Assembly (NCBI GenBank): GCA_021442155.1
Contig: CM038217.1
Coordinates: 151,411,834-151,475,833 of the forward strand
Direction of reading: 5' to 3'
Source: Cymbidium sinense
Taxonomy: Eukaryota; Streptophyta; Magnoliopsida; Asparagales; Orchidaceae
DNA: 64,000 nt
Position numbers and translations under genes: made by a program. The notes under the pieces were generated by a model. The model saw nothing but the letters and a program-made list of their open reading frames with translations, was not told the DNA's origin and searched no databases. Shown piece by piece: positions 32,901 through 64,000 of the stretch; the first letter of the stretch is position 1, and each line of letters starts with the position of its first letter.

Positions 32901-32926
32901 ATGTCAGTACCCCAACACTTGAATGG

Positions 32927-37102: not shown

Positions 37103-37114
37103 AAGTGGAGCATC

Positions 37115-41600: not shown

Positions 41601-41980
41601 AATGACGGTGGCACACATGGTTTATCACAGCCATCGTCGATCAAAGTGGATACCCTTGATTTTAAATCGAGGATTAATTTTAAAATGTAAATAATCTCAA
41701 TAGTCCATCTAAAATGCTGGATGGATGGTGAGATGGGTTGATTCTTCCACGAGGTTGTAAGACCATTCCATGATCCAAGGGGAGATTCAAGCCAGATCCT
41801 TTATGGATTCAATCAAGACTCAACCTACACCATCTAAAGAACCAAAGTGGCCAATCCAATGATGGATTTTACATGAAATGGAAATTTCTTTCACAAAAGA
41901 CCAACACCTCTTAGCCTAAGTGGTCAGAAAATCACTAACCTCCTCAGAGGTGATCACCGGCGCTCGGGATCGATGAGGTA

Positions 41981-42003
41981 GCTTCGTCTAGTGGAGACGA
42001 AGC
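41981..42003. other. perfect 9-bp LTR hairpin (middle LTR)
   Basis: GCTTCGTCT and AGACGAAGC around a 5-nt AGTGG loop, perfectly complementary. Homologues at 4676, 8964, 22430 and 26509 keep stem length and loop length. Confidence 0.7.
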
Positions 42004-42759: not shown

Positions 42760-43650
42760 AAAATAGGTTGGGCCAAGTTTCAATGGATTTGGAATCCATT
42801 TGATAGGGTTTGGCTCATGTTGACCCATTTAGGTCAAAATGGGTCAACTTGGGTCAAGTTGACCAATTGGTCAAATTGGGTCAAACCAAGGGTTGGGTCA
42901 AGTTCATATGACCATTTGAAATGTTTTGGTGGCTTTGGTTTGGTTCAATTTGGATTAGATTTGGTTTTGGCTCATATGACTCATTTAGGTCAAATGGGTC
43001 AAGTTGACCCATTTGACCCATTTGACCTATTTGGGGTAGGTCAAGGGTAGGTTTTTGGTTAGTCATATGGAATGGATTGGTATCTTTGTTTCCAATCAAT
43101 TTGGGTTAAGTTTTGGCTCAACATGACCCCTTTAGGTCATGTTGGGTCGGTCAATTAGCTAGGTTGGGTCTAGTTGGCCAATTAAGGCTTTGGTCAAGTT
43201 CACAAGTGATTTGGAATGAACTTGACCCATTGGTTTTGAATCAATTTGGCTTAGATCAAGTTTTGACACATTTTGGCCTTTTAGGTCAAAATGGGTCAAC
43301 TTGGGTCAAGTGGGCCAATTGGGCTAGGTTAGGCTCGAATGTTGGCTTGGTCAAGTTCAAACATAGGTCATGAGTGAACTTTGATCAATGGTTTCAATCA
43401 ATTTGGCCTATGGTAGATTTTGGTTATGTTGGATTTCATTTTTGGTTAAGTGTTGACTTAGTCAACCCTTAAGTTTGACTTGGTTTGACCCAATTCGGCT
43501 AATTGATCATCCCATGATGATTGTTGATCATGATGAGATGGAAATAGGAGTTTGGTTTAATCCAATTTGGTTAGGATCAAAAGTTGGCTCATAAACTTTA
43601 GGTCACAAGTGAGCCTAAGTGAGTCAAATGGCTTGGTCAAAGCTTGATTT
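42760..43650. repeat. TTGACC/GGTCAA-dense block (middle LTR)
   Basis: Same block as 3060-4150 in reverse complement. Several runs alternate GGTCAA and TTGACC, for example around 42825-42880 and 42990-43030. Open frames over it (42817-43050, 43113-43373) are artefacts of the repeat. Confidence 0.75.
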
Positions 43651-43955
43651 GAAGTTGATTTATCTTATATATGGACTTATGATTGAAATATAAATCCATT
43701 TACAAGTTATTTGAAGTCAAATGGATTTTGATCCATTTGAAAATTTCATATTCAAAGGAAGAATATGAAGGAGTTTTGGGTTTGATTTTTGATTTGGGTT
43801 TTGATTGCAGGATTGGAGTTTGGATTTATATATGAGCTCTTGATTATAGGATTGATTGAACCATGAGAGAAAATCAAGACTTTTGGCTTGAAAGTCTTAG
43901 GCTTGAGTTTGATTGGATTTGAGTTTGATTTTGAAGTGGGTTTTGATTGTTTGAA

Positions 43956-45000
43956 TTTATATTTCATTTGTATATGTGAATATAAATGAGAATATAAATT
44001 GATCATAAGAAATTTTCAAGGATTTGAAGTGGTTTAATCATGATTTAGGTTAAATCCATAAATGGTAATTTAAAGAATTTAAATTAAATTTTTTTTAATT
44101 TGAAATTTAATTTTTTGATTAGATTTGATTGATTTATATTTATATTTCATTTATATATGAGAACATAAATGAGAATACAAATATATTTTGAGAAAATCCC
44201 ATGAGTTTGAAATAGTTTGATCAAAGTTTAGGTTAAATCCATTAATGAAAAATTAATGGATATAATGGAATTTCAAGGATTTTAAATTTGAAATTTAATT
44301 TTTGAGTTGGATTTGATTGGTTTATATTTATATTTTATTTATATATGAGACTATAAATGAGGATATAAATATGTTTTGAGAAAATCCAAAGGATATGATT
44401 GGATTTGATCAAAGTTTAGGTTAAGTTTATTAATGAAAAATTAATGGATTTAAGGAAATTTTAAGGATCATAAATTTGAAATTTAATTTTTGAGTTGGAT
44501 TTGATTGATTTATATTTATATTTAATTTATATATTAGAATATAAATGAGGATATAAATATATTTTGAGAAAATCCCAAGGATTTGATATGGTTTGATTAA
44601 AGTTTAGGTTAAATTCATTAATGAAAAATTAATGGATTTAAGGAAATTTCAAGGATTTTAAATTTGAAATTTAATTTTTTTTTGATTTTGATTTGATTTA
44701 TATTTATATTTCATTTTATATGAGAATATAAATGAGAACACAAATATGTTTTGAGAAAATCCCATGAGTTTGAATAGGTTTGATCAAGGTTTAGAGTTGA
44801 TTTTGGCTAAGTCTTTTAATGGAAGGTTAAAGGGACTTAAGAAAATTTTGTGAATTGATTTTGAATTTTAAGTTTGATTTGATGGGTTTTGAATTTATAT
44901 TTCATTTATATATGTGAATATAAATGAAAATATAAATGAATAATAGAAAGATCTCAAAGATTTGAATGAGTTTTGATCATGGTTTTGGTAAATCCTTAAG
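43956..45000. repeat. ~188-bp tandem array in LTR, about six units
   Basis: A 'tttatattt.tatttcattt' landmark starts near 43956, 44133, 44321, 44509, 44698 and 44893, i.e. spacings of 177, 188, 188, 189 and 195. Each unit also holds 'ttttgagaaaatccca', 'gtttaggttaaat.cattaatg' and 'aatttgaaatttaattttt'. Shorter, more diverged arrays sit at the same place in the other LTRs (2120-2840, 6300-7160, 24410-25000, 28500-29230). Confidence 0.85.
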
Positions 45001-45374
45001 GGGAAATTAAGGACTTAGGCAAAATTTGGACTTAGGAATTTTTGATGGATTTTTTTTTTTTGATCATGGGTTTCAATCATAAGTTTCAAACATGGATTTG
45101 ATTTAGATTTGGGAAAATCAAATAGGATTGATTTGGAGTTTTGACTTGAAAGAAGGAATGGTGAGAAATGGTGCAAGCTAAGGGCGGACAAGTTTCCTAA
45201 CACCCCTAAGGCATGACCTATTCCTATGGCTAACCCTTATAAGTCTTCTAGGGCTATGGGAGTGTCCACTTAATCACTAGATGTGTCTTAAGACTAAGGA
45301 ACTCTTAAAGTCTAAGAGAAATCCTATGTCTAAGATGGAGGTGTTGAGGGCTCATTCTAAAAATGAGGTCAACA

Positions 45375-48344
45375 AAGGGTGCCCAATAGGTGTGGTGTGA
45401 GTACATGGTGTTGACCAAAATGATCAACAACAGGAAGATCTGATGAAACAATCTATCATTAACCAAGGAATAGAAAGAATGAGCTAATGCAATGTGGCTC
45501 TACTTATGTCCAAGACATAAGAGAGGGAAAATCACTAAGGGATTGAGTGTGAACCTTCCACTAGAAGAGTTCAAGTCATCCAGATGAGGTTTGATTTGAG
45601 TTTCGCTGAGGGAAGAGTGTTGAATTTATTTCAATTTTGTTGTTTTTTTATTTATTTTTATTTAGATTTATTTTGATTAGACTCCATGGGGAATAGAAAG
45701 GTGAACTTTCCACTAGGGAAGCAAGTTCAAATCATCCACAAGGGAGGGGTTGAAAAATCCACTGAGGGATAAGAATCCTAGATCCATTGGTGGACGATCA
45801 GAAGATTTGCATCTCATTGAGGAGAAGCAAAAGGATTTGATTTAGATTAATTGTTTGCTTTATTTTGTTTTATTGGATTTGTTTGTTTGAGATTTTTAGA
45901 TTTAAGATTTTGAGATGAATCAAGTTGGTTTACGATGGATCGCACTGAGTAGGAGCCATGGAGGCCTAGACTTAACCCAAATTTGCTAATCCAAAGGGAG
46001 TAGCCTACCAACAACAAGATAGGACTATCCAACCAACGGGATGACTTTCGGTATACAACAGCTATACTACGAAGAAAGCATAGTATACTTACATCCTCCA
46101 AAGTAAGAACCAGTTGCTGGGGTGATCTATTGGCAAGGCAACAGATTTAACCCAACCTAGGGCTGACTATTGAGTGAATGCAGCTGGGAGAATTAAATCA
46201 ACTCAAAGATAGTCAAGAGGAGATTTCATTTTTAGATTTATTTTTTGGATTATGATTGATCCTATTGGTTTTCGATGAATCTAACTCAGATTTACCAATT
46301 CAAAGGGAGTAGTCTACCAACCACAAGGTAGGGCTATCCAACCAAAGGAATGCCTTTCAGTTTTCAATGGTCAAGTCTTAAGAAGAAAGCGTGGAGACTC
46401 ACATCTTATAGAGACAAGTAACCACTGGAGTGATCGGTTTCTTTGGGCAACAAATCCAACTAGACCTAGGGCTGACACTTGAGTGAATGCCACTTGGGGG
46501 ACTTAAATCAACTCAAAATAGTCAAGATTAGTTTCATTTTTAGATTTTGTTTATTTTGATGGATTCCATTGGTTTGCGATGAATCAAACTGAGAAGGAGC
46601 TTATAGAAGCCTTGGCCTATCTCAGATTTACTGAACCAAAGGGAGTAGCTTCGGCGATGAACTATCCAAAAGGAGTGCCTTTTGGTTTGTAATGATGATC
46701 AATTGAAAGAAAGCTGACTCACATCTTCCACTTGAAAAGATCAGGGGTGATGGTTGCTTTAGGCAATAAATCAACGACTAGGTACTGTCTTTATAATAGT
46801 CATGCTAAAAAGAATGCATATAGCGCATCTTTCAAAGTGAGATATTTGCGGGTAACACTTGTGGCATAGATTGAACCTTTGGGGTGACTCTGAGGTGAGT
46901 ACCGACACAGGGGATTTATCTCCTTCGGGTCCTAAAGGGAGTTCTTTGGCATTGGCCTAGATAGGATGCCTGCTTGGGAAAAGGGGCCTCTTTGGGAGGC
47001 TTGAATTCCTAATCCAAACAATTAATTTTTTTTTATTTTAGTTTTTTTTTTTTACGTGGACCTATTGGTTTCAGATTAAACTAAGAAGGAGCTTTTATCA
47101 GCCTAGACCTATCTCAGATTTACTGAACCAAGGGAGAATCTGCATATCCACTAAATAGATTTTCCAACCACAAGGGTGGCTACTAGGAAAGGGGGAACTG
47201 TCCAATTCAAAAGTAACTCGGGTTGTGTCTAAATGGGTTCACAAAGAACGTCATCCAAATAGAGTGCCCATAGGGGATGGGGTCGATAAGGGCTTAATCC
47301 AACACCCTAGAGAAAATGACATGGCTAGTCATAAATCCAATAGGTATTCGGTGTCCAACTCAAGGAGAAAGCACGGGGACTCACATCTGCCAAGAGTGGT
47401 GTATACTTTGGTGAGTGTCAGCGACATCAACCAACTAAGGTGCCCATCAATTTGCAACAATTAGCCTAGAAGAAAGCTGGGGACTCATATCCTCCTATAG
47501 CGGCTGACTTTGGATAGTTTGTCTTGATTGACGTGCTATCCGACCTAGGGAGACTATTGAGTGAATGCCACTGGGGGACTTATATCAACTCAAAAGTTGC
47601 CAAGAGGGAAGGAGCCTCTGGGGGACTTATCCTTAACCTCAAATAAACTCAGCCTAGTTAGAACATGATGGCTAGTTTAAAAAGAAAGCACATGGACTCA
47701 AATCTTCTTAAATGAAGTCAATATGAGGTAGTTTACTGGCTGGGCAGTGAAGACTACCATACTAACAAGGCGCTCATTGGTTTGTAATGATCAAATTAGG
47801 AAAAAAGTGCGGGGACTCACCTCTTCCAACAAATGACCACTAGGGTGACATACTAGCGAGGTAGTATGTAGACCCGACTTAGAGCATTTAATGAGTGAGT
47901 GTTATAAGGGGCTTGCTCCCACATCAAAATAGCACGAGACAAAAGATTTATGTTTGTGTTTTATGCATGTGCTAAAAGGAATAGGATGCCTCTGGGGGAC
48001 TCTTACACCTACCTTAAAACATGCTGGGGGAATTAATGAAATTATACCACCGATGACAATAAGAATTCCCACTAAGAAAGGATGCCATTGGGGGACAGTT
48101 ACACCTAACTTAGTTGTGCTAATCGAAATATGATGCTTCTTGGGTTCTCTCACACCTATTCTAATAGCACTGGGAGGTTGTGTTTGTGATGTGAAAGAGG
48201 GATAGATTGTTGCTGGGGGACTCTTACACCTACCCTACAACACGTCATAGCGGATTCGCAAGATAAGCAAATAACATTTAGAAAGAAGACAATATTTGAT
48301 GAATGGAATCAAATTTTTGTTCTTATTTTCAAACAAGTTTTGTT
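45375..48344 (-). repeat. element B 3' region with ~310-330-bp subrepeats
   Basis: Starts near 45915, 46253 and 46560 share 'ttggttt.cgatgaatc', 'aaagggagtag..taccaa.cac', 'aagaaagc..ggagactcacatc' and 'gctgac..ttgagtgaatgcc..ttgggggact'. Homologous to 29478-32053 of A, but different in repeat number and detail. No conserved coding frame. The sense strand just before the LTR (ATTGGGCACCCTT) is a poor polypurine tract. Confidence 0.7.
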
Positions 48345-49445
48345 TCATGGGTAATATTTCTTTAGATAGAGCCCATTAATTGGAAGCATCAAGTGTTCCC
48401 CTTTACAATCAATAAGCTGATAAGAACCTCCTTAGTAGGCCTTCTCTATAGCATAGGGGCCTTCCCAAGTGGGTTCAAACTTGCCTCCCATCATTCGACG
48501 GGCAATAATTGGTCTCCTTAGGACTAGCACAAGTTCTCCTACATGAAAAGACCTAGGTTGGACCGGCTTGTTGTGAGCTTGAATCATTTTGGCTTTATAT
48601 AACTCGAGGTTTTGATACACCCGTAAGCGACTTTCATCCAAACCTTCGAGCTCTTCTAACCACAACTTTGTATTCTGTTATGAAGTGATCTTGTTAACCA
48701 ATGCTATCCTTAGTGATGGGAGCTAAACTTCTAAAGTTAGAATGACTTCAGGCGCATACACTAAGGAAAATAGGGTAGACTGAGTTGGACTCCGGTATGT
48801 GGTGCGGTAGGCACACAAGGCTTCAACCAACTGCTCGTTCCACTGTCTTTTATTGTTATCAAGGTCTTTTTCAGTATCTAGATGAGAGTTTTATTGAATG
48901 CTTCTGCTAAACTATTAGCTCTAGGGTAATAGATGGTGGAGTATCTCCAATCTATACCGCATCTTCTAGAAAAGTTGTTGATCTTTGTGCTTTTGAATGC
49001 AGTACCATTATTGAATATAATTCATCCAGACACCCTGAACCTATATACAATATGGTTCCTGATGAACTGAAGCACATGTTGAGCTATGACCTCTTTGAAT
49101 GGGATGGATTCCGCCCACTTGGAAAAGTAGTCGGTGGTAGCAAGAATGAACCAGTGACCCTTGGAAGAAAGAGGATTGATCGGACCCACAATGTTGGTTC
49201 CCCAACACCCAAATGACCATGAAGCAAAAGTTGGGTGTAGAATGTTGGGTGGTTGGTGGTGGACCACACCGTGCACCTGACACTGATGGCATCTTCTAGC
49301 TACATCAATGCAATCTGAAATCATCGAAGGCTAGTAGTATCCTAGTCTCTTGATCTTGATCTTCATCTTTGAACTGGACTGATGAGCTTCGCATAGACCT
49401 ACATGTACCTTTGTTACAATGCCATGAGATTCATGTTTGCCTAAA
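48345..49445 (-). pseudogene. integrase, element B (broken)
   Basis: HHCC finger: VHVGLCEAHQS, then RCHQCQVHG. First catalytic block: CWGTNIVGP, where family members have D before IVGP, so the Asp is Asn; DYFSKWAESIPFKE follows. Second block: FNNGTAF, again Asn in place of Asp; LAEAFNK supplies the Glu exactly 35 residues later. The C-terminal part (48665-48432) has EELEGLDESRLRVYQNLELY, RSFHVGELVLVLRRPI and GGKFEPTWEGPY, then a TAA, then GGSYQLIDCKG and LKKYYP with its stop at 48345. Frameshifts separate core and C-terminus. Catalytically dead, with both Asp residues lost. Confidence 0.87.
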
Positions 49446-49534
49446 TAATATAATCACATATGGTCAAAGGACCAATGGTACATGGTGCCATCAACGAGAG
49501 CATAGGAGAGAGCTCTCTGTTTCACCTGATGGGC

Positions 49535-50137
49535 TTATGATTTCTCTTGAGGTAGTTTGCCAGAGTTCAAGTAATCTATGAACGGTTGCCTCCAATCCAA
49601 CTCTTCTTCCTTTTTGGTAATGACAACCTCCCCTTCAAGAGAAAGTCTCTCGATGAGTTCAGCATCAATAAGGGATAAGACTTGTCTATTTTGGACTCTT
49701 ATTAGAATGGACTCATCTTCCGGACAAGCCAATTCTTTGGCAAGTTTGGCCAAAGCATCAGCTACTGTGTTCACTGCTTGAGGAACCTTGTAGATGGTAA
49801 CTTCGAGAATCTAGGCCAATAGCTTCATGGTGTACTCATGGTAGTGATGAAGCTTAGGTTTGAGAATCTTGTAGGACCCAATGATCTGGTTGATAACCAA
49901 CTAAGAATTTCCAAAGATATTAATGCTATTGACACTGATAGTGATGACTAACTCCAGACCAGCAATCAAAGCCTCATACTCAACTTCGTTGTTGGTGTAG
50001 GGGTTAGAAAGATAGTATGAGAATTTCATCACATCACGATTTAGAGTTAGTAGAACTATTCCTACCCCTTCCTTACCTGGGAGAATAGATTGTGGTGCTT
50101 CACCTATAAGAAAAGAAGCAGCACCATCAAAATACAT
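49535..50137 (-). pseudogene. RNase H, element B (broken)
   Basis: MYFDGAASF (catalytic Asp), YTNNEVEYEALIAGLELV (Glu), INIFGNS where A has FGDS, so the third acidic residue is Asn here, and VADALAKLAKELA (final Asp kept). A stop and a frame change lie between 49901 and 49774. The segment after ADALAKLA (SLIDAELIERLSLEGEV) links to the integrase finger, as in A. A and B have lost different catalytic residues. Confidence 0.85.
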
Positions 50138-50315
50138 CTCCCATCAGTGATTGTTGGCCTCCCCAAAGTTCATGATTTGTTCACTGGGGTGATTGTCACT
50201 AAGCAGAGAATCAACAGAAAGTCGGTGTGATACTAAGAGAGGTACGAAAGTGATATCAAATTGTGAGAGTATCATGGACCAATGAGCCAAACATCAAGAA
50301 AAGTTCATAAGAAAG

Positions 50316-51240
50316 CTACATGTATGGTTGGGAGGAGAGCTGGGTGGATGAGTTTACTTGGCCGAAAGTAGTAAAACTCTTTCTCTTCGTTGTTGGCTTG
50401 GGCCAAAACATCAATGAGTCATCCAATGTAGCATGTAAGAATGAGTGGTTTGTAGGATAGAGCTGCGGCAGCTTCACCAAGTACTGCTTGATATCTTTGA
50501 ATGAGTGCTGACACTTTTCATCCCACTTGAACATGATGTATGAGGCAAAATGGCTTGCATCTCCCAAGTTTGAGATAAAGCATCTTAGATACACCATCCA
50601 TCCTTGAAAGGATGAGTTGAGTTAAACTCTTCTAAGAGCTTTGATCTTTTGATCTATTTTACCCCGGTGTCGAACAACAAACCCAAGGAATTTCCCTAAA
50701 GTGACTCCGAATGCACACTTTAGGGGATTCATTTTCTGATCATATTATCTTAACCATTCAAAAACTACTCTCAAGTCAAAGATGTGATCTTACTTTTCTT
50801 TGCTTTTGACTACAAGATCATCAACGTAGCACTCAACCTGATGATGGATGAGTTCGTTGAAGATCTGAGTCATGGCCCATTGGTATGTAGCATCAACATT
50901 TTTAAGGCCGAAAGGCATGACCCTATAACAGAAGATTTTGATCAGGGTTCGAAAAGTAGTATTTCTTTTATCTTCAAAAGACATTTTGATTTGGTTATAT
51001 CTAGATGACCCATCCATGAAAGAAAAGATTACTTGAGATGAGGCAATGTCCACCATTAATTCTGGTATCGGAAGTGGAAACTCATCCTTGGAGCATGCCT
51101 TGTTTAAGTCCCTAAAATCGATGCAAATGCGAATTTGGCCATTCTTCTTCTTAACTTGAATGACACTGGCTAACCAGATAGGATATTTCTCTTCCCTGAT
51201 GAAACCAACTTCGATCAATTTCGTGGTTTCAAAAATGACC
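50316..51240 (-). pseudogene. reverse transcriptase, element B (broken)
   Basis: Open from about 51240 to 50790: VGFIREEKYPIWLASVIQV, KKKNGQIRICIDFRDLNKA, PELMVDIASS, FMDGSSRYNQI, VMPFGLKNVDATYQ and YVDDLVVKSK. A TAG precedes the open stretch and a stop follows YVDD. A C-terminal piece (50597-50316) begins MVYLRCFISNLGDASHFASY with KWDEKCQHSFKDIKQYL, then shifts frame. In intact relatives this enzyme makes cDNA primed by a tRNA at the PBS. Confidence 0.88.
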
Positions 51241-51380
51241 TATTGTTCAATTTCTAATCGCATGCGTCTAGGAGCTTTCTTAATAAGGGTAACATTAGGG
51301 TCTATTGCTAGCATGTGGACTATAATGTCAGGAGATAATTCGAGCATTTCTTCATAACTCCATATGCAGCAGTCTTTAAA

Positions 51381-52320
51381 CTAAGTCAATAGCCTAACTA
51401 AGTCATTGGTTTCTTCTTCATTCAGTAATGAACTGATGTACATTGGGCAAAAATTCTCTTCTGTCCCGAGGTTGATTTCTTTTAGCATGTCTATTCTTGA
51501 ATGGATTTCTTCTTCAAATTTTGGAGGTGCATCCTTGACTTGAAGATCATTTGGATCATCGGAGGTTTCTAAACACACATTCTCATAAGAGTTGGGGATG
51601 AGAATAACCTCTGAAACTCTAAATGGTTGGTAACAACCAAATAGTAATCGCCGTCATTGACTGGACCTACTGTATCAATCCTAGCCCTTCCTATGATTGT
51701 GCCTCCCTGCCTGAGGTGTTTCATAATTTTTCAAAGTACTCTGACTTGTGCTTGGACCAAGTGTGAGGAACCAGACCTTTTTGAATAAAATTTTGAACAC
51801 AAGGAGAGTAAAAATCAACTGGTAATTCCATTAATTCTTTAAAAGTATCTTCCTCAAGTCCTACATCTAACTTTAGACTTGAGGATGATGAACCTAAATA
51901 GAACCTCTTCTACTTCATGTCACTGGAAGACTTAGGAACTTCCTTAACTATCAAACCTTCAACTTTCTGAGATGTAAGTGAGGTAAGAGCTAAGGTTCCC
52001 AACTGCTGCCTGATAGTTCTACATAAACCATATTCGAATGCTTTTCTTTGCTTGGAGGCCCGGTCTTCGTCACTGTTTGGAACGAAATTCACCTCCAATG
52101 GACCCCGCTGAGAGGGGTTGGTTGGTATACTAATCACATTGGAATCATCCTTCGAGCTGGATTCCAAGTCAATGTGAATAGTAGGGGTACTCTTGTGAAC
52201 TGGAACATGACCTTTATCTGCTAAAGGCCAACTAGGGGGTCTCCCACCTCTGGACTGCCTTTGTTTCTACCTCTGCCTCTGCCTAGTGGAGGTTGAGCCA
52301 TTCTACCCACACGTCCATAT
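51381..52320 (-). pseudogene. PR-RT linker region, element B
   Basis: Pieces at 51381-51578 (MCLETSDDPNDLQVKDAPPKF) and 51910-52167 (MESSSKDDSNV... EGLIVKEVPKSSSDMK) match the linker of A (35377-35706, 36011-36214). No enzymatic motif is seen. Broken by stops. Confidence 0.7.
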
Positions 52321-52360
52321 GATGGAATGGACTGTGGGTGGAATGTGATATGCGGCTCTA

Positions 52361-52470
52361 TTTCTTTCTCATTTCCTCTTTCTTGTGGACTTGGATTTTC
52401 ATTTTTCTTTTCATTTTCTTTTATCTTTTCTTTTCTTGATTTTCTTTTTCTTTTATTTTTGCATTTGAAT
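52361..52470 (-). other. internal polypurine (K/E-rich) tract, element B
   Basis: Nearly pure purine on the sense strand, homologous to 36289-36360 of A. Confidence 0.45.
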
Positions 52471-52599
52471 TTTGCCCAAGTTCATGAGAAAGGGTGTGTT
52501 GAGGAAGATAGTAGGTCACATCCTCATAAATCTCAACCTCTCTAATTGAAAATATCTTTTCATCACCGTTGACACAATATTCAATTCCATCTTTTCTGA

Positions 52600-53086
52600 A
52601 CTTGATGCACTGATGAAGGGAGGATGAAATGATCTTGTTTTGATGTATCTAAGGCCTTCCTAGCAAAGCAGTGAACAAAGTATTCGAATCAATAATGTAG
52701 AACTTGGATTCAACATTCTAATCACCGATCTCCAATAGTAACACTATAGAACCTAAAGCCCACTCACCTTGATCATTGAATCCTCTCAACATCATCCTAT
52801 CTTCTCGGAGAGTGGAGATGTGGATCTTCAAATAGGCAAGGGTCTTTAGACTCATAATGTTCACTGGTCCACCTGCGTCCATGAGAACCCTGGTGAGTCT
52901 GAACTAGTCCATATCGACTGTGATGTAGAGGGGATGATTGTGCTCCAAGTCCCCCAGCAGAAGGTCTTCTTCTGTGAAGGTAATCCCTTGGGCCTCTTTT
53001 GCATAGTGTGCTTCCTCACCTATTGCAGTCAGCTGAGCTAAGCACATCTCAGGATCAAGGAGAGCCTTTATTAGTGATTTTGTCAT
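52600..53086 (-). pseudogene. aspartic protease, element B (broken)
   Basis: 53086-52904 carries MTKSLIKALLDPEMCLAQLTA and LLLGDLEHNHPLYITVDMD, then a TAG; the same frame continues with FRLTRVLMDAGGPVNIMS (active-site D-A-G), then MLRGF, GSIVLLLEIGD, FYIIDSNTLF and LLGRP before another stop. Homologous to the intact frame in A (36509-37102). The active-site Asp-x-Gly is kept in both. Confidence 0.83.
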
Positions 53087-53139
53087 ATCTTTGGATAAGA
53101 CAAGGGCATCATATATGCTTAGCTTAGATGGTAACTTTC

Positions 53140-54020
53140 TTAGATGAGAAAGGATGTGTAATCCACCTTCGGCTGGTCTTCCACAAGCATATCCAGGGGT
53201 GGAGCATCCTGTGAGATGGCTTCTCGATCTTTAGTACCAATGACTTGTTTCTCTCTATCTTGAGGTGCTGCCTTAGGAGGCAGAACCTTGCCACTATGGA
53301 GGTTGACTTCGGTAATATCCGGAGGCAAGGTGGTGGCAAGTTCTACATGCGCTTTAGGCTCACCTACAGCTTCTCCTATGGGAATCTCGAAATCGAATGA
53401 TTCCAAGTCTATCTCAAGAGGTGAACCCGTAGTGTTCAGAGTTGGAAAGTACAACTCTGAATCAGAAAGAGGGAGATCAGAATTATTATAGTTGATTAGA
53501 CTTGAAGAGTTATTTCTAGGAATAGAAGAAGACAACTCATGAAAGGAGACACAGATGTAATTCAAATCAGCTTTATTCTTCAATTTCTTGGAAATTTTTG
53601 GAGGTACAATGTAGAAGTCAATTAGAGTTAGTAGAGTAAGGGATTTGATGCCCTTATCTGCTAATACAAGAGTTCTACTAGTATAAAAAATAAAAGAACT
53701 AGCTGAAATGGAAAAAGTTGCCGGTGTGGAAACTGCAAATGAAAGGCTGGAGGGTCGATGGTGGTTGCTAAAGGGCTATTGGTGACACATGCTTCTTCTT
53801 TCTGAGCTCCTCCTTTCTTAGAGTTTGCAATGGTAACTTGCAAACCTTCCTTGGTGGTGGAGGTTTGAGCTGACTCAGGCACCTGCAAGGAAAGCTTCTT
53901 GATCTTTTGGACTATCTTCTTACAGGTACGGGATAAAGAGATATCCCAACCTTCTTTTATTTTGGTAGGATCACATGTATGCCCAAGGATTACCCTAATG
54001 GAACTGGAAGGTTGTTTCAT
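53140..54020 (-). pseudogene. gag C-terminal region, element B
   Basis: Two open pieces: 54020-53661 (MKQPSSSIRVILGHTCDPTKI..., basic, with KKIVQKIKKL) and 53583-53140 (MKNKADLNYICVSF... PIGEAVGEPKAHVEL... EVNLHSGKVLPPKAAPQ). The second is homologous to A at 37115-37321. No known domain; it lies between the zinc knuckle and the protease. Confidence 0.7.
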
Positions 54021-54089
54021 AGGGTATTATTTTGGGATAACGACAGCACCGATCTTGAAATTGTGTTCAAGCCAGTCCTTAAATGTGAT

Positions 54090-54131
54090 ACAATCTTCCA
54101 AACTGTGGCCTAGTATATGATGGTAAAGGCA
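54090..54131 (-). pseudogene. gag zinc knuckle, C-H-H-C variant, element B
   Basis: Sense translation CLYHHILGHSLEDC gives C-x2-H-x4-H-x4-C, a variant of the CCHC nucleocapsid knuckle with His as second ligand; plant Tat-type gags often have the form YCxxHxxxGHxTxxC. It is followed by ITFKDWLEHNF. The intact protein would bind element RNA. Confidence 0.75.
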
Positions 54132-54269
54132 AAAGTTTGGATCATGACTTTTACTAACTTCCTCTAGTCTCTTAGGCTCAGGTAGCTAGAAATCAGGTAT
54201 CTTTAAGAGATTCTTAAAGATTTTCCTAATCACCTCTCTCTTAAAAGAATAAGGTTTGTTTTACTTATC

Positions 54270-55065
54270 TAAAAAGTAGGTGGGCCATAACTACCTGGCG
54301 GCGGGTATGCATGCCGCTGGTGGTGGTGGTATGGCTGAGGCGATGGCTGTGCTAGTCATGGAGGCTATGTTGGAGGCCGGTATGGCTGCTTCGATGGTGG
54401 TAAAGGAGGTGGAGTCTCGAGGCCATGGTCTCAGTGATCTAGCTATTTGTTTCCCTTGTCAACTCATTCGCTCAGTGTCTTCTCATACCTTATGGGATTT
54501 CTTTGCGATCTGAAATGGAAGCTTTGGACTCTCCTTGTAGACTAGCTGCCTTGTTGATTAGCTTCTCAAATGTCTTTATGGTGAAGCCCTTAAGAATGAA
54601 GGCGACCGGGCCATGGATATTCTTCAAGAGAATCTCAATGGCATGCTGTTCAAACAGCTACAATTCACACCTCATACTCAGGTTATGCCATCAGAGAATG
54701 TAATCAACAAGTGTCTCACCAAAGTGCTGTTGGACTACAACAAGATCACCTACAATAACCCTTTCTGAGCTCCAACAAACCTCTTGATAAAGAGTTGCTC
54801 CAACCCATCAAATGTCTTTACTGAACTATTGGACAGTTCAACATACCAATCAAAAGTAATACCCGCTAGGCTATTGACAAAGAGTCTAAAGAGTAAAGCA
54901 TCACTGCCACCTGCGTTACAACAACTTGCTCTGAAATGCGCTATATGTTGCCTCAGGTTTTCACTACCATTGAAGCTTTTGAAGGAAGGAGGCACGAAAC
55001 CTTTGGGATATTGAATGGAATCAAATTCCTCTAGGTAGGGTCTACCCTTTGGAACCGATGATCCT
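54270..55065 (-). pseudogene. gag capsid domain, element B (broken)
   Basis: Open from about 55065: PKGRPYLEEFDSIQYPKGF, PPSFKSFNGSENLRQHIAHF, DALLFRLFVNSLAGITFDWY, SVKTFDGLEQLFIKRFVG and QKGLL, then a stop. This is the retrotransposon gag core (PF03732-like pattern recalled from the family, not searched), which builds the virus-like particle. Downstream to about 54270 it continues in other frames: GETLVDYI, a stop, and IEILLKNIHGPVAFILKGF. No start codon can be assigned because the upstream frame is shifted. Confidence 0.82.
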
Positions 55066-55329
55066 CCCCGGGCGAGCCAAAGCTTCCTTCACCTACTGCT
55101 CAACCATTTATTTCAGATCTTTTTTTTGTATGGAGGTTCTTTCCAGCACCTTCCCATACATACTAGTGCTACCTTGCTCAATGGGAGGTAGAGTCTTAAC
55201 TAGATCTAAGACATGCACTAGCTCAGGTTGACTAACATCGATTGTACTAGGATGAACTGGAGGGGCTTGTATTTGAAGCACTGACACTACTGCTAATAAG
55301 TCCTACAACTGCTATGCCATCCTATCAAT

Positions 55330-56909: not shown

Positions 56910-57746
56910 TCAAGCCTCCACGGCTCTCACCCTATGGATCTGACCCTTAATGCTCCTAGATATGATGGATCTCAAATCGAACAAGGTACTGGACTCTAAA
57001 TGTCTGTAAGCTCCATTGACCTGGCAAAGAATAGTCTTAAGTCCAGCATAGGGCCTCCTATGCTCCCTAGTCGGTGTCTCAAAGTATGCTGGTGGCAAAG
57101 GTGATTTAGTGATCCTCCTATAATCCTCCTCTCCATCTGAGGTTGAGAGGAGGTGGAACCTACTGCCCCTCAAAAGTGGAGAGGCCTTATGGGGAGAACC
57201 CTCCTCAGCTATGTGGGAAGCCACATCGAGCTCCCTGGATGCTCGCTCATGGTACCGCTTGATCTTCCTATTTTTGTTATGGAGTTGGGTGCGGGTGAGC
57301 AAAGCAGAGTGAGAACTAGAACCTACCTTGAAGGTAGGGGAGATTATCTCGGAGGCTAAGATAGCCTTCCCCTTTGGGGTGACCAAAGAGGAGGTAGCAG
57401 TTCTCACTAGAGCTACGGTAGCGGCAACTGGTTGAACCTGTGTCGAAGCAGTTGGTACTAACACTGACACTGAACGGGGTGTGGGAACCATGACAGCCTT
57501 CCTCTTCAATGAGGGGAACTCAGAGTCAGACAGCATGTCAAAGCAGATAAGTGGCATCTATCTCGTCACCTCCTCGCTACTAACAGTTATGAGGGTTATC
57601 CCCTCATAAGTAATTCGGACTCGCTTAAAGCCATGACCAAAGGAAATCAGATGTACGATGTCAATCATGGTGAGATTGGCCTGATCCAAGGCTAGATCTA
57701 CACTAGAGGGGAAGGAGAAAATAAACTTGTCGGGAGCCATGATCAC
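56910..57746 (-). pseudogene. ORF1 upstream of gag, one in-frame TAG, element B
   Basis: A 62-codon frame from 57746 (MIMAPDKFIFSFPSS...) ends at TAG (57560-57558) and is followed without a gap, in the same frame, by ATG and 215 further codons to 56910. It therefore reads as one 277-residue ORF with a single stop at codon 63, the second longest open region in the window. Composition: hydrophobic/Ser N-terminal part with AxDxANLTMIDIVHLISFG, a Val/Thr/Ala-rich middle (SVSVLVPTAST, VAATVALVRTAT), and a basic C-terminal half (NKNRKIKRYHERASREL, RSIKGQIHRVRA). No known domain recognised. Ogre elements are known to carry an extra ORF between the 5' LTR and gag; this occupies the same place. The ~690-bp duplicate downstream includes its C-terminal half. 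Confidence 0.7.
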
Positions 57747-57881
57747 TGCATTGATTGAAGGCTGAAAAAATTGATTGTGCTGAAATCACTACTTTTATTT
57801 GAAATGTAATTGAGTCAAACTCTTGCTTTAGTATTTGTCTTCAATCATTGACCTCTAAACTTGATTTGAAATTTGAACCCA

Positions 57882-59190
57882 CACTTAACAAATTTAGGTA
57901 TGCTAAGTGGGATTCATTGAATTCTTGGAGATATTTTTGATAATTGGAGGAGAGACTTTGCCATATGATTTTGATTTAGAGCCCATACTCAACCAATGTA
58001 AGTAGGTTGGGCAAGGTTCAAATATTTGGATAGACTTTTGGAGATATATATGTTGTATGTCTTGTTTGAAAATTTGATTTGGAAAGCCTTTACTTAGCAA
58101 ATTTGGGTATGGTAAAAATGTTTTCAATTATAGGTTTGAGAATTTTGTGAAAATATCTTTGTATGTGATGATTGGTTATGTGTGTGATATATGTTGATTT
58201 GATTTGAAAGTGGGGCCTCTTATTTAACAAATTTGGTATGTCAAGTAGAGCCCAAATGTGTTATGATTTTAAAATGAGGCTCTTACTTAACAAATTCGGT
58301 ATGTCAAGTAAGAGTCTAGTGTATTATGATTTGTGAAACTGAGACTCTTAATAAATTTGGTATTTTAAGTATGAGTCAAGTGTATTCATGATTATAAAAT
58401 GAGGCTCTTACTTAAAAAATTTGGTATATTAAGTTGGAGTAAAGTGTGTTTATTATTTGTGAAAATGAGGCGCTTACTTAACAAATCTGGTATGTTAAGT
58501 AGGATTCAAGTGTGTTATGATTTTAAAATGAGGCTCTTACTTAACTAATTTGGTATGTTAAGTAGGATCCCAGTGTGTTATGATTTGCTTTCTCTTATTG
58601 GAAAGAGAGGGGAACTCTTTGTTTGACAAATATGGTATGCCAAATAGAGTTAAAAATGTGTTGTGATTTTGAAAGAGGGAAATCTATTTAGCAAATTTAG
58701 GTATGTTAAATAGAGTTCATTTTGTTTTTGTGATTTTTAAAAATGGAACTCTCATTTAACAACTTTGGGTATGTCAAATGGAGTGCAAATATGTTTTGAT
58801 GTTTCAAGACTTTGGAAAAGAGGAATTCTATTTAACAAATGTAAGTGTATTAAATAGAATTCAATTTGGTTTGATTTTTCAAAAGAGAGGGGAACTCCCA
58901 TTTGACAAATTTGGGTATGTCAAATTGGGGTTCAAATATGCCTTGATTTTGTGTGTGATTCCTTGCTTTTGAAAAGAGGGAAACTTCAACTCTAGCACAT
59001 GTGAAATATGCTAAGTGGAGTTTCAATTTTGTCATAATTTTATTTAAAACTAGAGTCTTCATTCAACAAATTTGGGTATGTTGAATGGAGATAGCCATTT
59101 TCAAAAATGTGCTTTTTAAAGAGGGATTAAAAATGTTGATTTTGATTTTGGAAAGAACCTCCATGTAACATTTATATGAATTGTTAAATG
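57882..59190 (-). repeat. leader array of ~15 tandem hairpins with co-varying stems
   Basis: Units mostly 60-75 bp long, each with left arm, a loop close to AAATTTGGGTA, and right arm. Arm pairs: 57882-57890/57901-57909; 57988-57994/58005-58011; 58213-58229/58239-58253; 58280-58292/58302-58314; 58343-58347/58373-58377 (weak); 58405-58415/58429-58439; 58473-58483/58493-58503; 58536-58545/58557-58566; 58613-58628/58638-58651; 58683-58693/58704-58714; 58748-58760/58773-58784; 58823-58835/58850-58862 (13 perfect bp); 58892-58907/58918-58933; 58981-58997/59009-59023; 59057-59068/59079-59090; 59162-59170/59182-59190. Stems differ (ACTTAAC/GTTAAGT, ATTTGAC/GTCAAAT, ATTCAAC/GTTGAAT, CTCAACC/GGTTGGG) yet stay paired. 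The array lies between PBS and ORF1, in the presumed untranslated leader RNA. Confidence 0.85.
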
Positions 59191-59199
59191 ATGTTTGGT

Positions 59200-59610
59200 T
59201 ATATGAGTTCCATGCTTTTTAAAAATTTCTTGTGACTTTTGTGCAAAATATTTTGTTATGTGAATTTTGAAAAAGTGCTTTCGGAAAGTTGCATTTTACA
59301 AAAAGATATTATTTTCTTAAATATATGATGAACCTTGCCTCACCAAGCTAGTGGGAAAGAAGTTCTAAATTTTAGTCATCTCCTTTCATCGGTTAATTTT
59401 ATCTTTTACCTATTGGGGGACCCAAGAGGGGTTCCAAGACCTACAAGGAGTGAGGTCCTAAAATCTAGAGGATGTTGGCTAGCTTTGCTTAAGAATAAAA
59501 TAAGTTAAGTGCTAATGGAAAGAGAGATAATCTCGGACTCATATGAAATACAAGTCCACTATCAATACTTTGAGACAATAAATGTCTACTAGAGATGAAG
59601 AGAAGAATCA
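59200..59610. other. leader between PBS and hairpin array
   Basis: About 0.4 kb of untranslated leader with no open frame and no repeat recognised. It contains 'gggggacccaagagg' and 'gggaaagaag' stretches but nothing assignable. Confidence 0.4.
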
Positions 59611-59628
59611 TCCCCAGTGGAGTCGCTA
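59611..59628 (-). other. primer-binding site (tRNA-Arg-like)
   Basis: Sense strand TAGCGACTCCACTGGGGA, 8 nt inside the 5' LTR end. It differs by one base from TGGCGACTCCACTGGGGA, whose complement ends in the CCA of a tRNA. PBSs of this type (TGGCGACTC...GGGGA) are, from memory, those assigned to tRNA-Arg in Tat/Ogre-type elements. It starts minus-strand cDNA synthesis in an active element. Confidence 0.75.
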
Positions 59629-59888
59629 GAAAAATCTATGGTGTTTATTTTTGATTGTGTATGGGGGACACCACGCAGATGTGAGGGTGTACTTATTGAA
59701 GTGATCAGGGAAGGACATTGAGGTATGAAGTACTATCTCGAAAGATAGAGACATCACCCTTCAATATACCTAATCACCTAATAATAACTCCTAAGGTATG
59801 ATGGATCTTCGAATGTATTAGAGATTTTTTTCCTAATTTACATGGATGAATAAAGTAGAGTTTATATTAAATCGGGTTCTAAAGTTTC

Positions 59889-59943
59889 CTATGGGGCAAG
59901 CCCCCATAGTTAATTACATCCTAAGGAAGGTGAATTCCTTAGG
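59889..59943. other. twin hairpins near LTR 3' end (B 5' LTR)
   Basis: CTATGGGG/CCCCATAG (59889-59896 and 59902-59909), then CCTAAGGAA/TTCCTTAGG (59920-59928 and 59935-59943, loop GGTGAA). The pair lies about 250-300 nt upstream of the PBS in the sense strand, inside the presumed transcript leader. Confidence 0.65.
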
Positions 59944-61116
59944 AATACTCTTGATTAAAATAGATAATTGTTGTCTCCAAAGATTTCAAAGATAGGACTA
60001 TCAATAAATTGGCTATATTGGAAAATCAAATGGGATGGATCAAAAGGAGAGACTTGTTATTGAAGCAAAAGGAGATGAGTAGAGAATGCTCATGATACTA
60101 GGAAACATAGTGAGCATTACAATCTATCCTATGGTTGGGATTTATATGTTTGAAATTAAAAAGGATTATATGTTTTAGTTGAATTTTTATTAGATTGCTA
60201 GAACTTATAATCCCACAATACAAGATTGTGAAAATACTTAAGAGGGGAGAATTTATACATGTAGCCTGAAGGGAACATCCACCTCGAATCCTAAATCTAG
60301 GGAGCTTTAACAAGGGCTAAACCATGACCTAAATCTAAGCGAAAGTGAGCATAAGGTTTACCTCCATAAGAGAGGGTAAACCACCCGACTACTGGACTTA
60401 TAACCACATGGAGTGGTAGCCAGCTAACTCCTCATAAGCTTTAAAATCATGTAGACAAGTCATATGATTTTTCAAGATAGTTGGGTTGTTATTATTTAGA
60501 AAGAAACTAAAGTCCTTAAACCCACTCCCTAAGAGACTAAAGCATGATTGGTATGAACAATGACTTAGTCTAATGTAAATCTTTTCAATTTTTATTTAAT
60601 TTTGGACACTTCATTTTGACAAAGGCCATGGGATTTTTATATGTCTAAATGCATGATGAATGAGGTTATTGGCTAAATCAGAGAGAAAGAAGTGTTTTCC
60701 ACCACAGAGGAGACCCTCAAAGGTCAAGTCTTCCCCTATTGTGCAAGGATGGAAACTCTCTCTTAGCAAGAGTGAAGCAATGTGGATGCATGATATTAAA
60801 CATACAATATTCAGCTAAGGGGTTGCTAAATCTTTTAGTTATCTTGATTTAATGTATTTGCTTTATGTGAGGTTATGAGTTATTTAGAAAATTTAGTTAT
60901 GAGTTGTAGTTGGGGTTGAAAATTTATTTTTCCCTAAAAGCCTAGTCGGATTCATGCCACACATTAAATCACCATAGAAGTAAGAAACTAAGAAAAGGCA
61001 TGTTATTTCTACTACGGAATTTAAACATAACATCAAGCATTTTATAAATCTAACGGAATAAAAGTGGCGTTGTCTTGCATACAACGAATAGAGAAAATGG
61101 GTAGCTGAGCTCTACC

Positions 61117-61124
61117 ATTATATA
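61117..61124 (-). promoter_or_regulatory. candidate LTR TATA box (B 5' LTR)
   Basis: TATATAATGGTAGAGCTC and then AGCTACCC on the minus strand, about 1.48 kb before the LTR end. If used, transcripts would start near 61090 and U3 would be about 6.6 kb long. Confidence 0.5.
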
Positions 61125-62289
61125 ATCCAGAATATGAAAGAATAATTATAATTTACAAATGAATAAATGCTATGGCGGGTCTTCTTATCTTAATTCTTCA
61201 TATCTTCTTCATTTATTTATTTGGATTTGCTTGCTTCAAAGGCATCGTAAGGCCTCCTAAGACAAAGCCTTCTAGCCACTGCTCATCCTAAACCCCCATA
61301 TCACTAATCCTAATTCCTAATGCAAAATTATATTAAAAATAGGAAAAGTAAATCTAACTACACCTGCAAAACAAGTGTTAGCTAAACACACCATACAACC
61401 TAAGCTGTTATATGAATAATTTGGACATAGTACCCTGCACATGGGTAAATTAGCTCACTTGTCCTAATTTAGATTATGCTTAAGGGCTAAGCAACCTACA
61501 AAAGAGAGCATTTATATTTATTTTAAGCACCCCTTAAGCACAATCCCCTACAGAAAATATGATTAGGCTAATCAAGGCCTCCCATCCAGTCTACGAAGTA
61601 TGCACCCTAACATCCAGTCTATAACAGTACATCATAAAACCAAAGATACATCAAACCATGCACCGCCTTAACATAAACCTAGAAGTGGTGACTTAATCTT
61701 AAGTGTGTGTATTAAGGCTTGTGTGGTATGTCTTAATTAGGCTTTGTTATGATTTTCTTAGTATGACAGGATTTAATTATAAGAGATGGTTTCACTATAA
61801 GTGACTTAATTGATTTGCAAGTTTTACTTAATATTTTTCTTTATTCCATTTAGTTTACACTTAACAACTAAGTATTAAAAAGAGAAGAAAAGAGAGGGTT
61901 ACTCTCTTTTCTCCCTCCATTAAGTCATTTCTAAAGCAAATTAATTAGCAAGTTCTCTTTAGTGAATGGCTTATTACATGTTTTAATTAATCCTAGGTTT
62001 AGGTTTACTTTAAATGCTCTCATTCAATAAGAAATGCATCTTAAGATTAGTTGGGAATAATTACTATCAAATGACACATATTTATTCATTTCTTTCCATC
62101 ATATGTAACATGCACATGATTAAATCATAAGCATACCTATACATGTCATATACCTTAGCACACTTAAATGATGGATGAAAACATGTACTTTTGGAATTTA
62201 TATGTTTCATTTAATTGGATCATTTTATCATATTAATTTAAAGATCTATCTAAATTCTTATAAAAAATATACATATGAATGAAGTTAAA

Positions 62290-63430
62290 TAGGTACATGT
62301 CATTGTTAAACCAAGGAAGTGAAGTAATCAAATGACCTCCTTGGGGATAGCTAAAGCCTTGTGTTCCCATGATGTCCAAACTATATACCCATTACATTCA
62401 AACATAAGTAAATTTGAATACATGAACATAAGAAAGAGAGCTCTAAGTCATATGATTAATTAATTCAACACCTTAATCATTCATGAATGCATGTATTTTT
62501 AATAAAAGACAATGGGTTCTAATTCCATAATTAAATACACGCACACATGTATAAGATACATAAGCTAGTACATGCCATTATTAACCAAGGAAGTGAGGCA
62601 ATCAAATGACCTCCTTTGGGTGACTTAAAGCCTCATATTCCTGAGATATCTAGAATAAATATTTACTTTTCTCAAATACATATGGATAAATACATAAATA
62701 AAGGAAGGTGATTCATGCAAAAGTTATATTTTTATTTGATTGAAACATTTATGCATATGGAGTAAAGTCTTATCCAAACTATAATATTGAAATATGTAAG
62801 AATGAAATCAAATAGAGTATGTGCCATTGTTAAACCAGGGAAGTGAGGTAATCAAATGAACTCCTTGGGGCTAGCTAAAGCCTCGTGTTCCCGTGATATC
62901 CAAATTATATACCCATTACATTCAAACATAAGTAAATTTGCATACATGAACATAAGAAAGAGAGCTCTAAGTCATATGATTAATTAATTCAACACCTTAA
63001 TCATTCATGAATGCATGGATTTTTTACAAAGACAATGGGTTCTAATTCCATAATTAAATACACACACACATGTATAAGAGACATAAGCTAGTACATGCCA
63101 TTATTAACCAAGGAAGTGAGGTAATCAAATGACCTCCTTTGGGTGACTTAAAGGCTCATATTCCCGGGATATCTAGACTAAATATTTACTTTTCTCAAAT
63201 ACATATGGATTAATACATAAATAAAGGAACATGATTCAAGAAAAAGTTATATTTTTATTTGATTGAAACGTTTATGCATATGGAGTAAAGTCTTATCCAA
63301 ACTCTAATATTGAAATACGTAAGAATGAAATCAAATGGAGTATGTGCCATTGTTAAACCAGGGAAGTGAGATAATCAAATGACCTCCTTAGGGCTAACTA
63401 AAGCCTCATATTCTCGGGAAGTCCAAGCTA
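62290..63430. repeat. ~265-bp tandem repeat in LTR, five units
   Basis: Units start near 62290, 62570, 62820, 63095 and 63340. Alternate units (62290/62820/63340 and 62570/63095) are more alike, giving a higher-order period of about 520-530 bp. This is the largest unit number among the LTRs here. Confidence 0.85.
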
Positions 63431-64000
63431 TATACCCATTAACATTCTTACTTATATAAATCAATACTTGAATGAAAGAAAAGAAACTTCACTTCATACA
63501 CTTAAGCTATAATCACATACATCTCCTATGTATTTATAACTAGCATTAATACCATGTATAATCACTCATTTATAAGTTTTGGAAACTATATTTTGATTTA
63601 ATAATGATAATAGCCACACATATATTAATTTAAATCAACACATGTAAGCTTGACATAAGGAAACCATTTGATTTAATTAATTTTGGAAAAAGATGAATGC
63701 ATGATCACAATTGATTTACAATATTTAATATGATTGAACAAAAAATAAAGAGACATAAGCACATGATTTCATTCAATCCAACTAATTCATAAGGACAATC
63801 ATACTAAATAAGCTCATTTAAAATAAACCAGAATTTCTTAATGTCATTTTTTAATCCCATGTCTAATTTGATTTAAGAAATGTAAGAAAGGTTTGCTAAT
63901 TCTAATCCGATTCCCCATGTGTAAGTTAATTTGATTTAATGAAAATCAGTTAAAATGATTTTTATGGATTAATTAAGTTAAGGTGTGAATAAATCAATTA

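Follow-up and report, generated by a model that had tools for sequence, protein, structure and literature searches.

Ty3/gypsy retrotransposons of the Tat lineage carry tandem repeats, which have been described between pol and the 3' long terminal repeat (LTR) (PMC7004042; PMC11963269) and as arrays in expanded non-coding regions (PMC6317226). Here, we analyzed a stretch of 64,000 nucleotides from the orchid Cymbidium sinense (contig CM038217.1, positions 151,411,834 to 151,475,833; hereafter, the window), in which a Tat/Ogre-type Ty3/gypsy element, with the minus strand as its sense strand, presents a tandem array of 17 hairpins between its primer binding site (PBS) and its first open reading frame (ORF1). 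In the available parts of the sources, the repeats of Tat, Ogre and Retand elements resemble this array in belonging to the same Ty3/gypsy lineage and in being family-specific tandem repeats of the non-coding internal region, but the repeats of the Tat 3' untranslated region are located between pol and the 3' LTR (PMC7004042; PMC11963269), whereas the array described here is located between the PBS side and ORF1. In the main texts of PMC7004042, PMC11963269 and PMC6317226 the word "hairpin" does not occur, and "palindrom" is absent from that of PMC7004042. In the literature searched, mostly without subscription papers, no counterpart of a leader hairpin array in a retrotransposon was found.

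Among orchids, Ogre-like giant elements of the Tat lineage have LTRs of 6,425 bp, a PBS antisense to tRNA-Arg and a dual RNase H (PMC9289625). They share with the element studied here the lineage, the very long LTRs and the dual RNase H, but a leader array is not described in the available text of that source, where the word "tandem" has no occurrence. In barley, the RNA of the copia elements BARE1 and BARE2 is said to carry conserved dimerization and packaging signals, which BARE2 is said to keep (PMC3735527). This is also a plant LTR retrotransposon RNA, although from another superfamily, and a tandem hairpin array is not described in the accessible portion of the source ("stem-loop", 0 occurrences). 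In satellite tobacco necrosis virus 1, short stem-loops with an AxxA loop were proposed from in vitro studies as coat-protein recognition sites, and these signals were judged insufficient for specific packaging (PMC6475782). The likeness lies in a common short loop motif on variable structures, while a tandem array is not described in the text available from that source. Finally, the hairpins of retroviral and Ty1 leaders are similar in position, in being hairpins and in belonging to the genomic RNA, and Ty1 uses loop-loop contacts (PMC5454406; PMC4588261). As described in the available parts of these sources, however, such leaders contain a small number of distinct hairpins, whose loops are palindromic and GC-rich in HIV-1 (human immunodeficiency virus 1) and complementary and 7 nt long in Ty1, whereas in the array one hairpin is repeated and the self-complementary part of its loop consists solely of A and U.

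The array was delimited with a hairpin list and a sequence-only hidden Markov model (HMM), and its units are given below in sense order.

57874..59198, minus strand: the array, 17 hairpins, U0 to U16
59155..59198, minus strand: hairpin U0, with a variant loop
59053..59097, minus strand: hairpin U1
58980..59024, minus strand: hairpin U2, with a variant 11-nt loop
58892..58933, minus strand: hairpin U3
58822..58863, minus strand: hairpin U4
58746..58788, minus strand: hairpin U5
58678..58719, minus strand: hairpin U6
58612..58653, minus strand: hairpin U7
58530..58572, minus strand: hairpin U8
58467..58509, minus strand: hairpin U9
58401..58443, minus strand: hairpin U10
58339..58379, minus strand: hairpin U11, with a 3' arm shorter than its neighbors'
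58276..58318, minus strand: hairpin U12
58213..58255, minus strand: hairpin U13
58082..58127, minus strand: hairpin U14
57979..58016, minus strand: hairpin U15, with arms of unequal length
57874..57916, minus strand: hairpin U16

All 17 units are in the sense orientation, with a spacing of 61-128 bp and the loop consensus UACC[C]AAAUU. The HMM retrieved them on the minus strand at E-values (E) of 4e-5 or better, and no second array was detected in the window, where the next-best HMM hit was no better than E 0.04. Considering only Watson-Crick hairpins with a score of at least 9, the array contains seven, compared with a mean of 0.35 and a maximum of 2 in 100 dinucleotide shuffles. The first-pass annotation of this DNA, made from the letters alone, had described about 15 hairpins at 57882-59190 in units of about 65 bp; the array is there, with the number of units, the limits and the spacing corrected as above. 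The arm strings that it quoted are all present in the sequence (CTCAACC/GGTTGGG including one plus-strand wobble), as are the 13 perfect pairs at 58823-58862, followed loopward on the sense strand by one G.U and one A-U pair. At 58892-58933, where 15 of 16 pairs had been counted, the sense strand forms 14 Watson-Crick pairs of 16, the two remaining positions being an A.C and a further mismatch. The wobble exists on the plus strand only. Two other identities were considered for the array. No known RNA family was recognized, the covariance models of Rfam having no match in 57500-59800 at E <= 1, and a coding repeat was rejected because many of the variable spacings are not divisible by three and the array is not overlapped by any open frame of at least 110 codons.

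The same arrays are found elsewhere in the window's own assembly (3.53 Gb, 2,174 contigs), in 54 copies from two subfamilies that total 913 units, the window included: 33 copies and 495 units in family 1 (to which the window belongs) and 21 copies and 418 units in family 2. Exact matches to a 23-base piece of U3 number 6, including the one in the window, and all lie inside such arrays, and a leader search returned at least 60 matches in at least 30 loci (a first look scored 40 of 15,020 candidates). In 29 loci other than the window, the PBS-side leader (29/29), the LTR end (29/29, on the other strand in L023) and ORF1 (27/29, unmatched in L012 and L031) follow in the same order, and the location of the array between the PBS and ORF1 on the sense strand, as first annotated, thus holds in the window and beyond. 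In the second subfamily, the same loop is carried by different stems, for example CATTCAATA/TATTGAATG and ATTTAGCA/TGCTAAGT. Its loci L037 (24 units) and L038 (27 units) both have the PBS-side leader; pieces of ORF1 lie beyond the array in L038, and no ORF1 match was found in L037. L039 (32 units) and L040 (12 units) likewise matched the PBS-side leader and not ORF1. A search with the second subfamily gave 75 matches in 20 loci, which are known by their array.

The number of units per copy ranges from 9 to 30 with a stricter filter, from 12 to 24 in 34 arrays (L003, with no leader match, being excluded from this count) and from 12 to 32 by laxer counts, some of these numbers being lower bounds because the fetched loci stop 1.5 kb past the match. 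The pooled counts do not include L002 and L007, which are the window, or L041, which coincides with L003, and in the stricter pool the longer stretches L037-L040 took the place of L003, L005, L006 and L031. Units with a gapped loop boundary or at a locus end were dropped. At the level of the whole genome, a 26-base form of the hairpin with four free stem letters is found at 8,391 exact places (control, 0). In L039, sense positions 1894-3238 hold a run of 22 similar units with a spacing of 61-71 bp, as if one unit type had recently expanded.

The comparison of the two subfamilies shows which parts of the hairpin are constant. Loop identity is 0.87 between the subfamilies and 0.87 and 0.88 within them, while between the subfamilies identity is 0.69-0.70 for arm positions 1-9 and only 0.35 and 0.46 for positions 10-14 (120 units sampled each). 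Among the units of the window, it reaches 0.77 in the loops, 0.68 and 0.75 in arm positions 1-4 and 0.56 in the spacers, with a mean stem divergence of 0.32. The similar loop and the different stem of each unit, noticed in the first reading, are confirmed by the high loop identity and the diverged outer arms, and such a shared loop motif on variable paired stems is what characterizes multi-site degenerate packaging signals. On the sense strand, G is scarce in the loops (1.0% and 0.6% in the two families), the spacers (5.6% and 4.6%) and the 5' arms (4.8% and 5.8%), and amounts to 26.8% and 22.7% in the 3' arms. The hexamer AAAUUU spans the loop and the closing pair in 728 of the 913 units. Kissing-loop palindromes were also considered: in the 11 loop types without AAAUUU (each seen at least 4 times), palindromes of at least 4 were present at 0.82, compared with 0.64 in shuffled loops, which is not convincing.

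The arms match their own partners beyond what permutation or shared ancestry yields. In the window, their pairing score is 358, compared with 285 ± 12 for permuted arms (0/20,000) and 319 ± 11 when the permutation is restricted to three position-set groups (2/20,000); group A alone gave 7/20,000, and groups B and C alone showed no excess pairing (6,789 and 3,372 of 20,000). Keeping the tree and the substitutions but placing the latter in other columns, the summed G of 80.7 exceeds a null of 41 ± 10 (1/2,000), or of 46 ± 11 (9/2,000) with a tree built from loop and spacer only, and the Watson-Crick fraction is 0.74, against 0.53 and 0.48 in these two nulls (0/2,000 each). U0 and U2 were omitted from the unit alignment (A1). 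Permuting arms within copies (20 permutations), the scores were 10,204 vs 8,513 ± 62 in family 1 and 8,919 vs 7,504 ± 75 in family 2. For 98 pooled units, a tree null that keeps the rate of each column gave a Watson-Crick fraction of 0.562 ± 0.047 at positions 1-12, compared with the observed 0.768 (0/1,000); this null and the all-pairs test mentioned below used the 98 of 180 units left after removal of near-identical ones, from 9 of the 54 copies.

Counting of changes points in the same direction. In 59 units (56 distinct, from 3 copies), there were 101 double-change cells vs 42.5 ± 8.5 (0/500), a covariation of 0.381 vs 0.245 ± 0.013 (0/500; 0.12-0.17 when the arms were slid), changes on both sides in 11 of 14 pairs vs 8.6 ± 1.0 (11/500), and 82.8% paired cells (at most 44.8% when slid). 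A ranking made without any structure placed stem positions 5, 3, 9, 4 and 1 at ranks 2-6 of 861 column pairs with 105 units, and stem positions 5, 4 and 3 at ranks 1, 3 and 4 of 820 with 484 units. In an R-scape-like all-pairs test, the sum over the whole stem was 168.5, compared with 5.1 ± 30.7 (null maximum 128.7 of 300). Covariation is thus greater than shared ancestry provides for the stem as a whole. The proposal that pairing is retained while the arm sequence drifts is borne out by the arm permutations and the tree nulls; the covariation sought by the first-pass annotation exists over the whole stem in the tree nulls, with no single pair passing the all-pairs test.

The leader is also predicted to be structured, as in packaging and dimerization signals of the retroviral type, a likeness that is at the level of prediction. 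For 58190-59110, the fold z-score (z) is -12.6 when the minus strand is folded and -10.0 for the plus strand, with 20 shuffles in each case. When the window was scanned in 400-base segments with pairs limited to 60 bases, 30 of 160 segments fell below z -4 on a strand, three of them in the array (sense -6.3, -8.1 and -6.5; antisense -1.4, -3.8 and -4.6) and most others in LTR parts. In the arrays of L037-L039, the sense z was lower than the antisense z in 18/18 segments, 17 of which had a sense z of -5.0 to -11.7, while eight flanking segments ranged from -3.0 to +1.3 on either strand.

The time at which pairing was kept can be approached from a core family of 30 copies, including the window and omitting the diverged L005, L006, L012 and L031. 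Its 211 orthologous stem pairs are mainly Watson-Crick in 184 cases, G.U in 4, A.C in 13 (8 at position 10), other in 6 and mixed in 4. Five double private (one-copy) changes were found in the core, two leading to G.U and none to Watson-Crick pairs; when the four diverged copies are added, there are eight, namely 4 Watson-Crick, 2 G.U and 2 other. Since the diverged copies represent other branches, their Watson-Crick double changes are read as older. Derived states found in at least three copies are 20 G.U, 23 A.C, 10 other and 2 compensated; the comparison of G.U with the rest between shared and private changes (p 0.055) is not decisive, and recurrent mutation may contribute. Private changes break pairs as neutral decay would, and the matching of the arms therefore arose during element replication and not by chromosomal repair. 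Indeed, there is no sign of arm correction in the chromosome, and pairing was kept while the element replicated.

During this replication, the loop sequence and the pairing of the stem, rather than its sequence, were held, which suggests that each hairpin is a putative binding site recognized through its loop. The reading that we favor, tentatively and with slightly less than even confidence, sees in the array a multivalent RNA element that acts in cis within the genomic RNA leader, likely for Gag binding, dimerization or packaging. Possible as well, but more doubtful, is its specific form as a modular packaging array, tandem and expandable, in which the number of hairpins would be tuned by duplication to offer a multivalent platform for Gag or the ORF1 protein that marks the genomic RNA. 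In the multivalent RNA element, the number of sites would determine the avidity, and the reader would most likely be the element's own Gag or the ORF1 product, the partner protein being a guess; the full-length RNA would thereby be selected, dimerized and packaged. The AAAUUU hexamer at the loop could contribute weak loop-loop contacts, and, with G so scarce outside the 3' arms, loops and linkers would stay single stranded.

Several observations weigh against this multivalent RNA element and call for caution. The copies were located through array or leader sequence, so that copies without an array would have escaped, and the 54 copies do not give the frequency of the array in the family; accordingly, its presence in all copies seen, in agreement with what the first-pass annotation expected of other family members, applies to copies selected in this way. 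Regarding folding, the array segment 57601-58000, which holds U16, is not below z -4, the sense z of L039 5400-5799 is just -1.2, and base composition alone may account for some or all of the difference between sense and antisense z. RNAalifold predicted six pairs, positions 2-7, and no more. In the counting of 59 units, the further pair types (29 vs 26.7 ± 1.6) were reached by 53/500 shuffles. In the structure-free rankings, none of the remaining 11 of 16 stem positions ranked higher than 47 with 105 units, and none of the remaining 13 of 16 ranked higher than 35 with 484 units. No column pair had E < 0.05 in the all-pairs test, the best being a non-stem pair (E 0.55); within the stem, position 9 came best (E 0.62), and position 3 had E 3.2. 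The intermediates also weigh against it: private changes at Watson-Crick pairs gave 44 G.U, 43 A.C and 96 other states, without a strand signature, and stem position 4 across the whole genome showed 166 G.U vs 174 A.C, together about 4% of all. Furthermore, position 10 is occupied mainly by C.A, a mismatch that reads as G.U on the antisense strand alone, in 8 of 16 hairpins of family 1 (270/495 units).

Other counts of wobbles do not modify this picture. Among the matches listed for the 26-base form (100 of 8,391), 89 were fully Watson-Crick, 11 had G.U and none had A.C, but the sense-strand signature that this would indicate is not supported by the whole-genome counts at position 4. At stem positions 1-9 of the pooled units, there were 199 GU vs 233 AC in family 1 and 326 GU vs 117 AC in family 2, where 221 of the 326 GU are due to a single position-7 form. 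Units with just one mispair gave 173 GU vs 56 AC, or 74 vs 56 (p 0.14) without the position-7 form. The wobble-based test, in the window, core, pooled and genome-wide counts, therefore chooses no strand. As G.U and A.C intermediates are equally rare at stem position 4, selection at the RNA level is not proven; their rarity and equality fit short-lived states followed by later neutral decay, and do not tell RNA from DNA. Of the initial claim that structure was selected, the kept pairing stands, and selection on RNA rather than on DNA is not established. In family 2, C.A is also present at position 11 in 82/418 units. The C.A at position 10 could be a structural feature and not decay.

The absence of strand bias must be considered together with what else could have matched the arms. 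Hairpin-rich templates are prone to template switching, and the arms of functionless hairpins, if matched by such switching or by hairpin-primed correction during reverse transcription, would agree without strand bias, as observed. We consider this unlikely, as it leaves unexplained why conservation is highest in the unpaired loop, why the array has a fixed place in diverged copies and why loops and spacers are poor in G, and mismatches such as the position-10 C.A escaped correction. Homogenization of the arms by palindrome correction, which had been named as a result that would refute selection on structure, is for its part disfavored after insertion by the decay seen in private changes, and could have acted during the replication cycle. 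The equality of G.U and A.C intermediates is also expected if neither strand is special, that is, if the palindromes are sites at the DNA level, bound by a dimeric DNA-binding protein of the host or the element on the integrated copy or the double-stranded cDNA, where dyad symmetry and not RNA folding matters. The dyad symmetry around a center of 9-11 bp and the palindromic TTGACC/GGTCAA motifs of the LTR parts in the window are in line with such sites; a protein reading sequence, however, predicts constant half-sites, whereas here the outer arms vary (0.35 and 0.46), the central loop is constant (0.87), and arm lengths and bulges are variable, which makes this a decidedly improbable origin of the pairing. 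An ordinary tandem repeat, in which a chance hairpin unit was duplicated and recent duplication alone explains the matched arms, would suit the abundance of tandem repeats in Tat elements, as presented in the available parts of the sources (PMC7004042; PMC6317226; PMC11963269), the run of similar units in L039 and the lack of excess pairing over permutation in group B of the window. This explanation is already disfavored by the stem divergence of 0.32 among the window units and by the tree-evolved nulls, which lose pairing, and there is little chance that it is correct.

The function of the array could also be another one at the RNA level. It lies ahead of ORF1, and the sense stretch 59229-57742 contains 16 ATGs, compared with 19.6 ± 3.0 in shuffled sequences. 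With no depletion of upstream ATGs, ORF1 is unlikely to be reached by plain scanning, and the array might slow scanning, or promote shunting or internal entry at ORF1, or recruit an export factor, in the manner of plant pararetrovirus leaders. Structured leaders and transport elements are known, since, according to the available part of the source, export factors are recruited by the structured leader in cauliflower mosaic virus, and RNA transport elements are carried by mouse IAP and MusD (PMC12786077). Nevertheless, one loop repeated over many hairpins is not obviously required for control of translation or nuclear export, and we find such a role rather unlikely. The hairpins, being repeated and likely transcribed, could finally be a small-RNA precursor array, but stems of about 9-16 bp are short for plant Dicer substrates and no Rfam family was matched, and this possibility seems very remote. 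If the modular packaging array is real, it would be a packaging or dimerization element built on repetition and not on one unique fold, a design not found described in the literature searched. The repeated hairpin with its near-constant loop (one form, 8,391 exact places) is a concrete candidate for assays, and the natural variation in hairpin number (12-32 by laxer counts) provides a dose series without engineering.

Self-comparison shows the whole window to be plant-like DNA in which LTR retrotransposons are nested in one another. The other parts of the element that hosts the array are the following.

59639..64000, minus strand: 5' LTR, with its inner end at 59639, where LTR-copy homology begins, continuing past the window edge
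59611..59628, minus strand: PBS-like motif, a pattern match with one mismatch
59199..59610, minus strand: leader from the PBS to the array (piece 59230-59639 matched in 29/29 other loci, L008-L036)
56910..57741, minus strand: ORF1 region, in which the ATG at 57741 is not in frame with an open frame of 215 aa at 57557-56913
48300..55100, minus strand: decayed gag-pol, with gag named by eye and reverse transcriptase (RT) at 50793-51239

The start of ORF1 was taken as the ATG at 57741, as read from the sequence. The 215-aa frame (57557-56913) sits upstream of the gag-like frame, which was recognized by eye and had no Pfam hit. Neither Pfam nor NCBIfam gave a family for the 215-aa frame, Pfam giving no hit to the plant mobile domain, and none of 392 candidate homologs of ORF1 reached E <= 0.001. 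An extra RNase H (aRH), recognized as RVT_3 and followed by the integrase H2C2 domain, is found in frame 32930-33799 of a sister copy, to which 49220-50089 of the array's element aligns with 5 stops. The ordinary RNase H (RH) between RT and aRH rests on the relative P0007, aligned through the region, which has PF17917 and PF17919, presumably the RT RNase H, among its listed domains. This RNase H/integrase region has 9 protein relatives at E <= 1e-10, including a protein of Dendrobium nobile with 64% identity over 45% of the query; when the RNase H protein was searched in viral contigs for related loci, 2 stretches fitted the pattern and 0 were confirmed. The Ogre and Retand branches of Tat are marked by an additional RNase H located between RH and integrase, and a plant mobile domain is reported in the extra ORF of 57% of Ogres (PMC6317226, in its available part). 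Because no plant mobile domain was found here, and this domain is not universal among Ogres, the element is labeled Tat/Ogre-type and not a proven Ogre. The sister copy (29900-37300) lacks everything from within gag to the LTR, including ORF1, array and PBS, and therefore allows no test of the array.

The LTRs of the window have palindromes of their own. The C/A-rich (sense) 5' parts of LTRs are present in five copies (42500-45370, plus strand; 2300-4200; 6400-8200; 23200-24700; 27300-29100), crowded with TTGACC/GGTCAA palindromes, which we take to be the plant W-box core, and two of them contain tandem arrays of 179-188 bp. Their fold z goes down to -9.4, and perfect stems of 17 bp are found at 3668-3710 and 42986-43029. 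These palindromes are conserved in the five copies, without covariation clear to the eye. The region 37427-45374 resembles one LTR, about 8 kb long, common to two elements, in the order LTR-internal-LTR-internal, as suggested by the alignments, although nested insertions could also produce it. Finally, 10076-17128 contains a large inverted duplication, in which 14050-17128 aligns to 13193-10076 with 81% identity.

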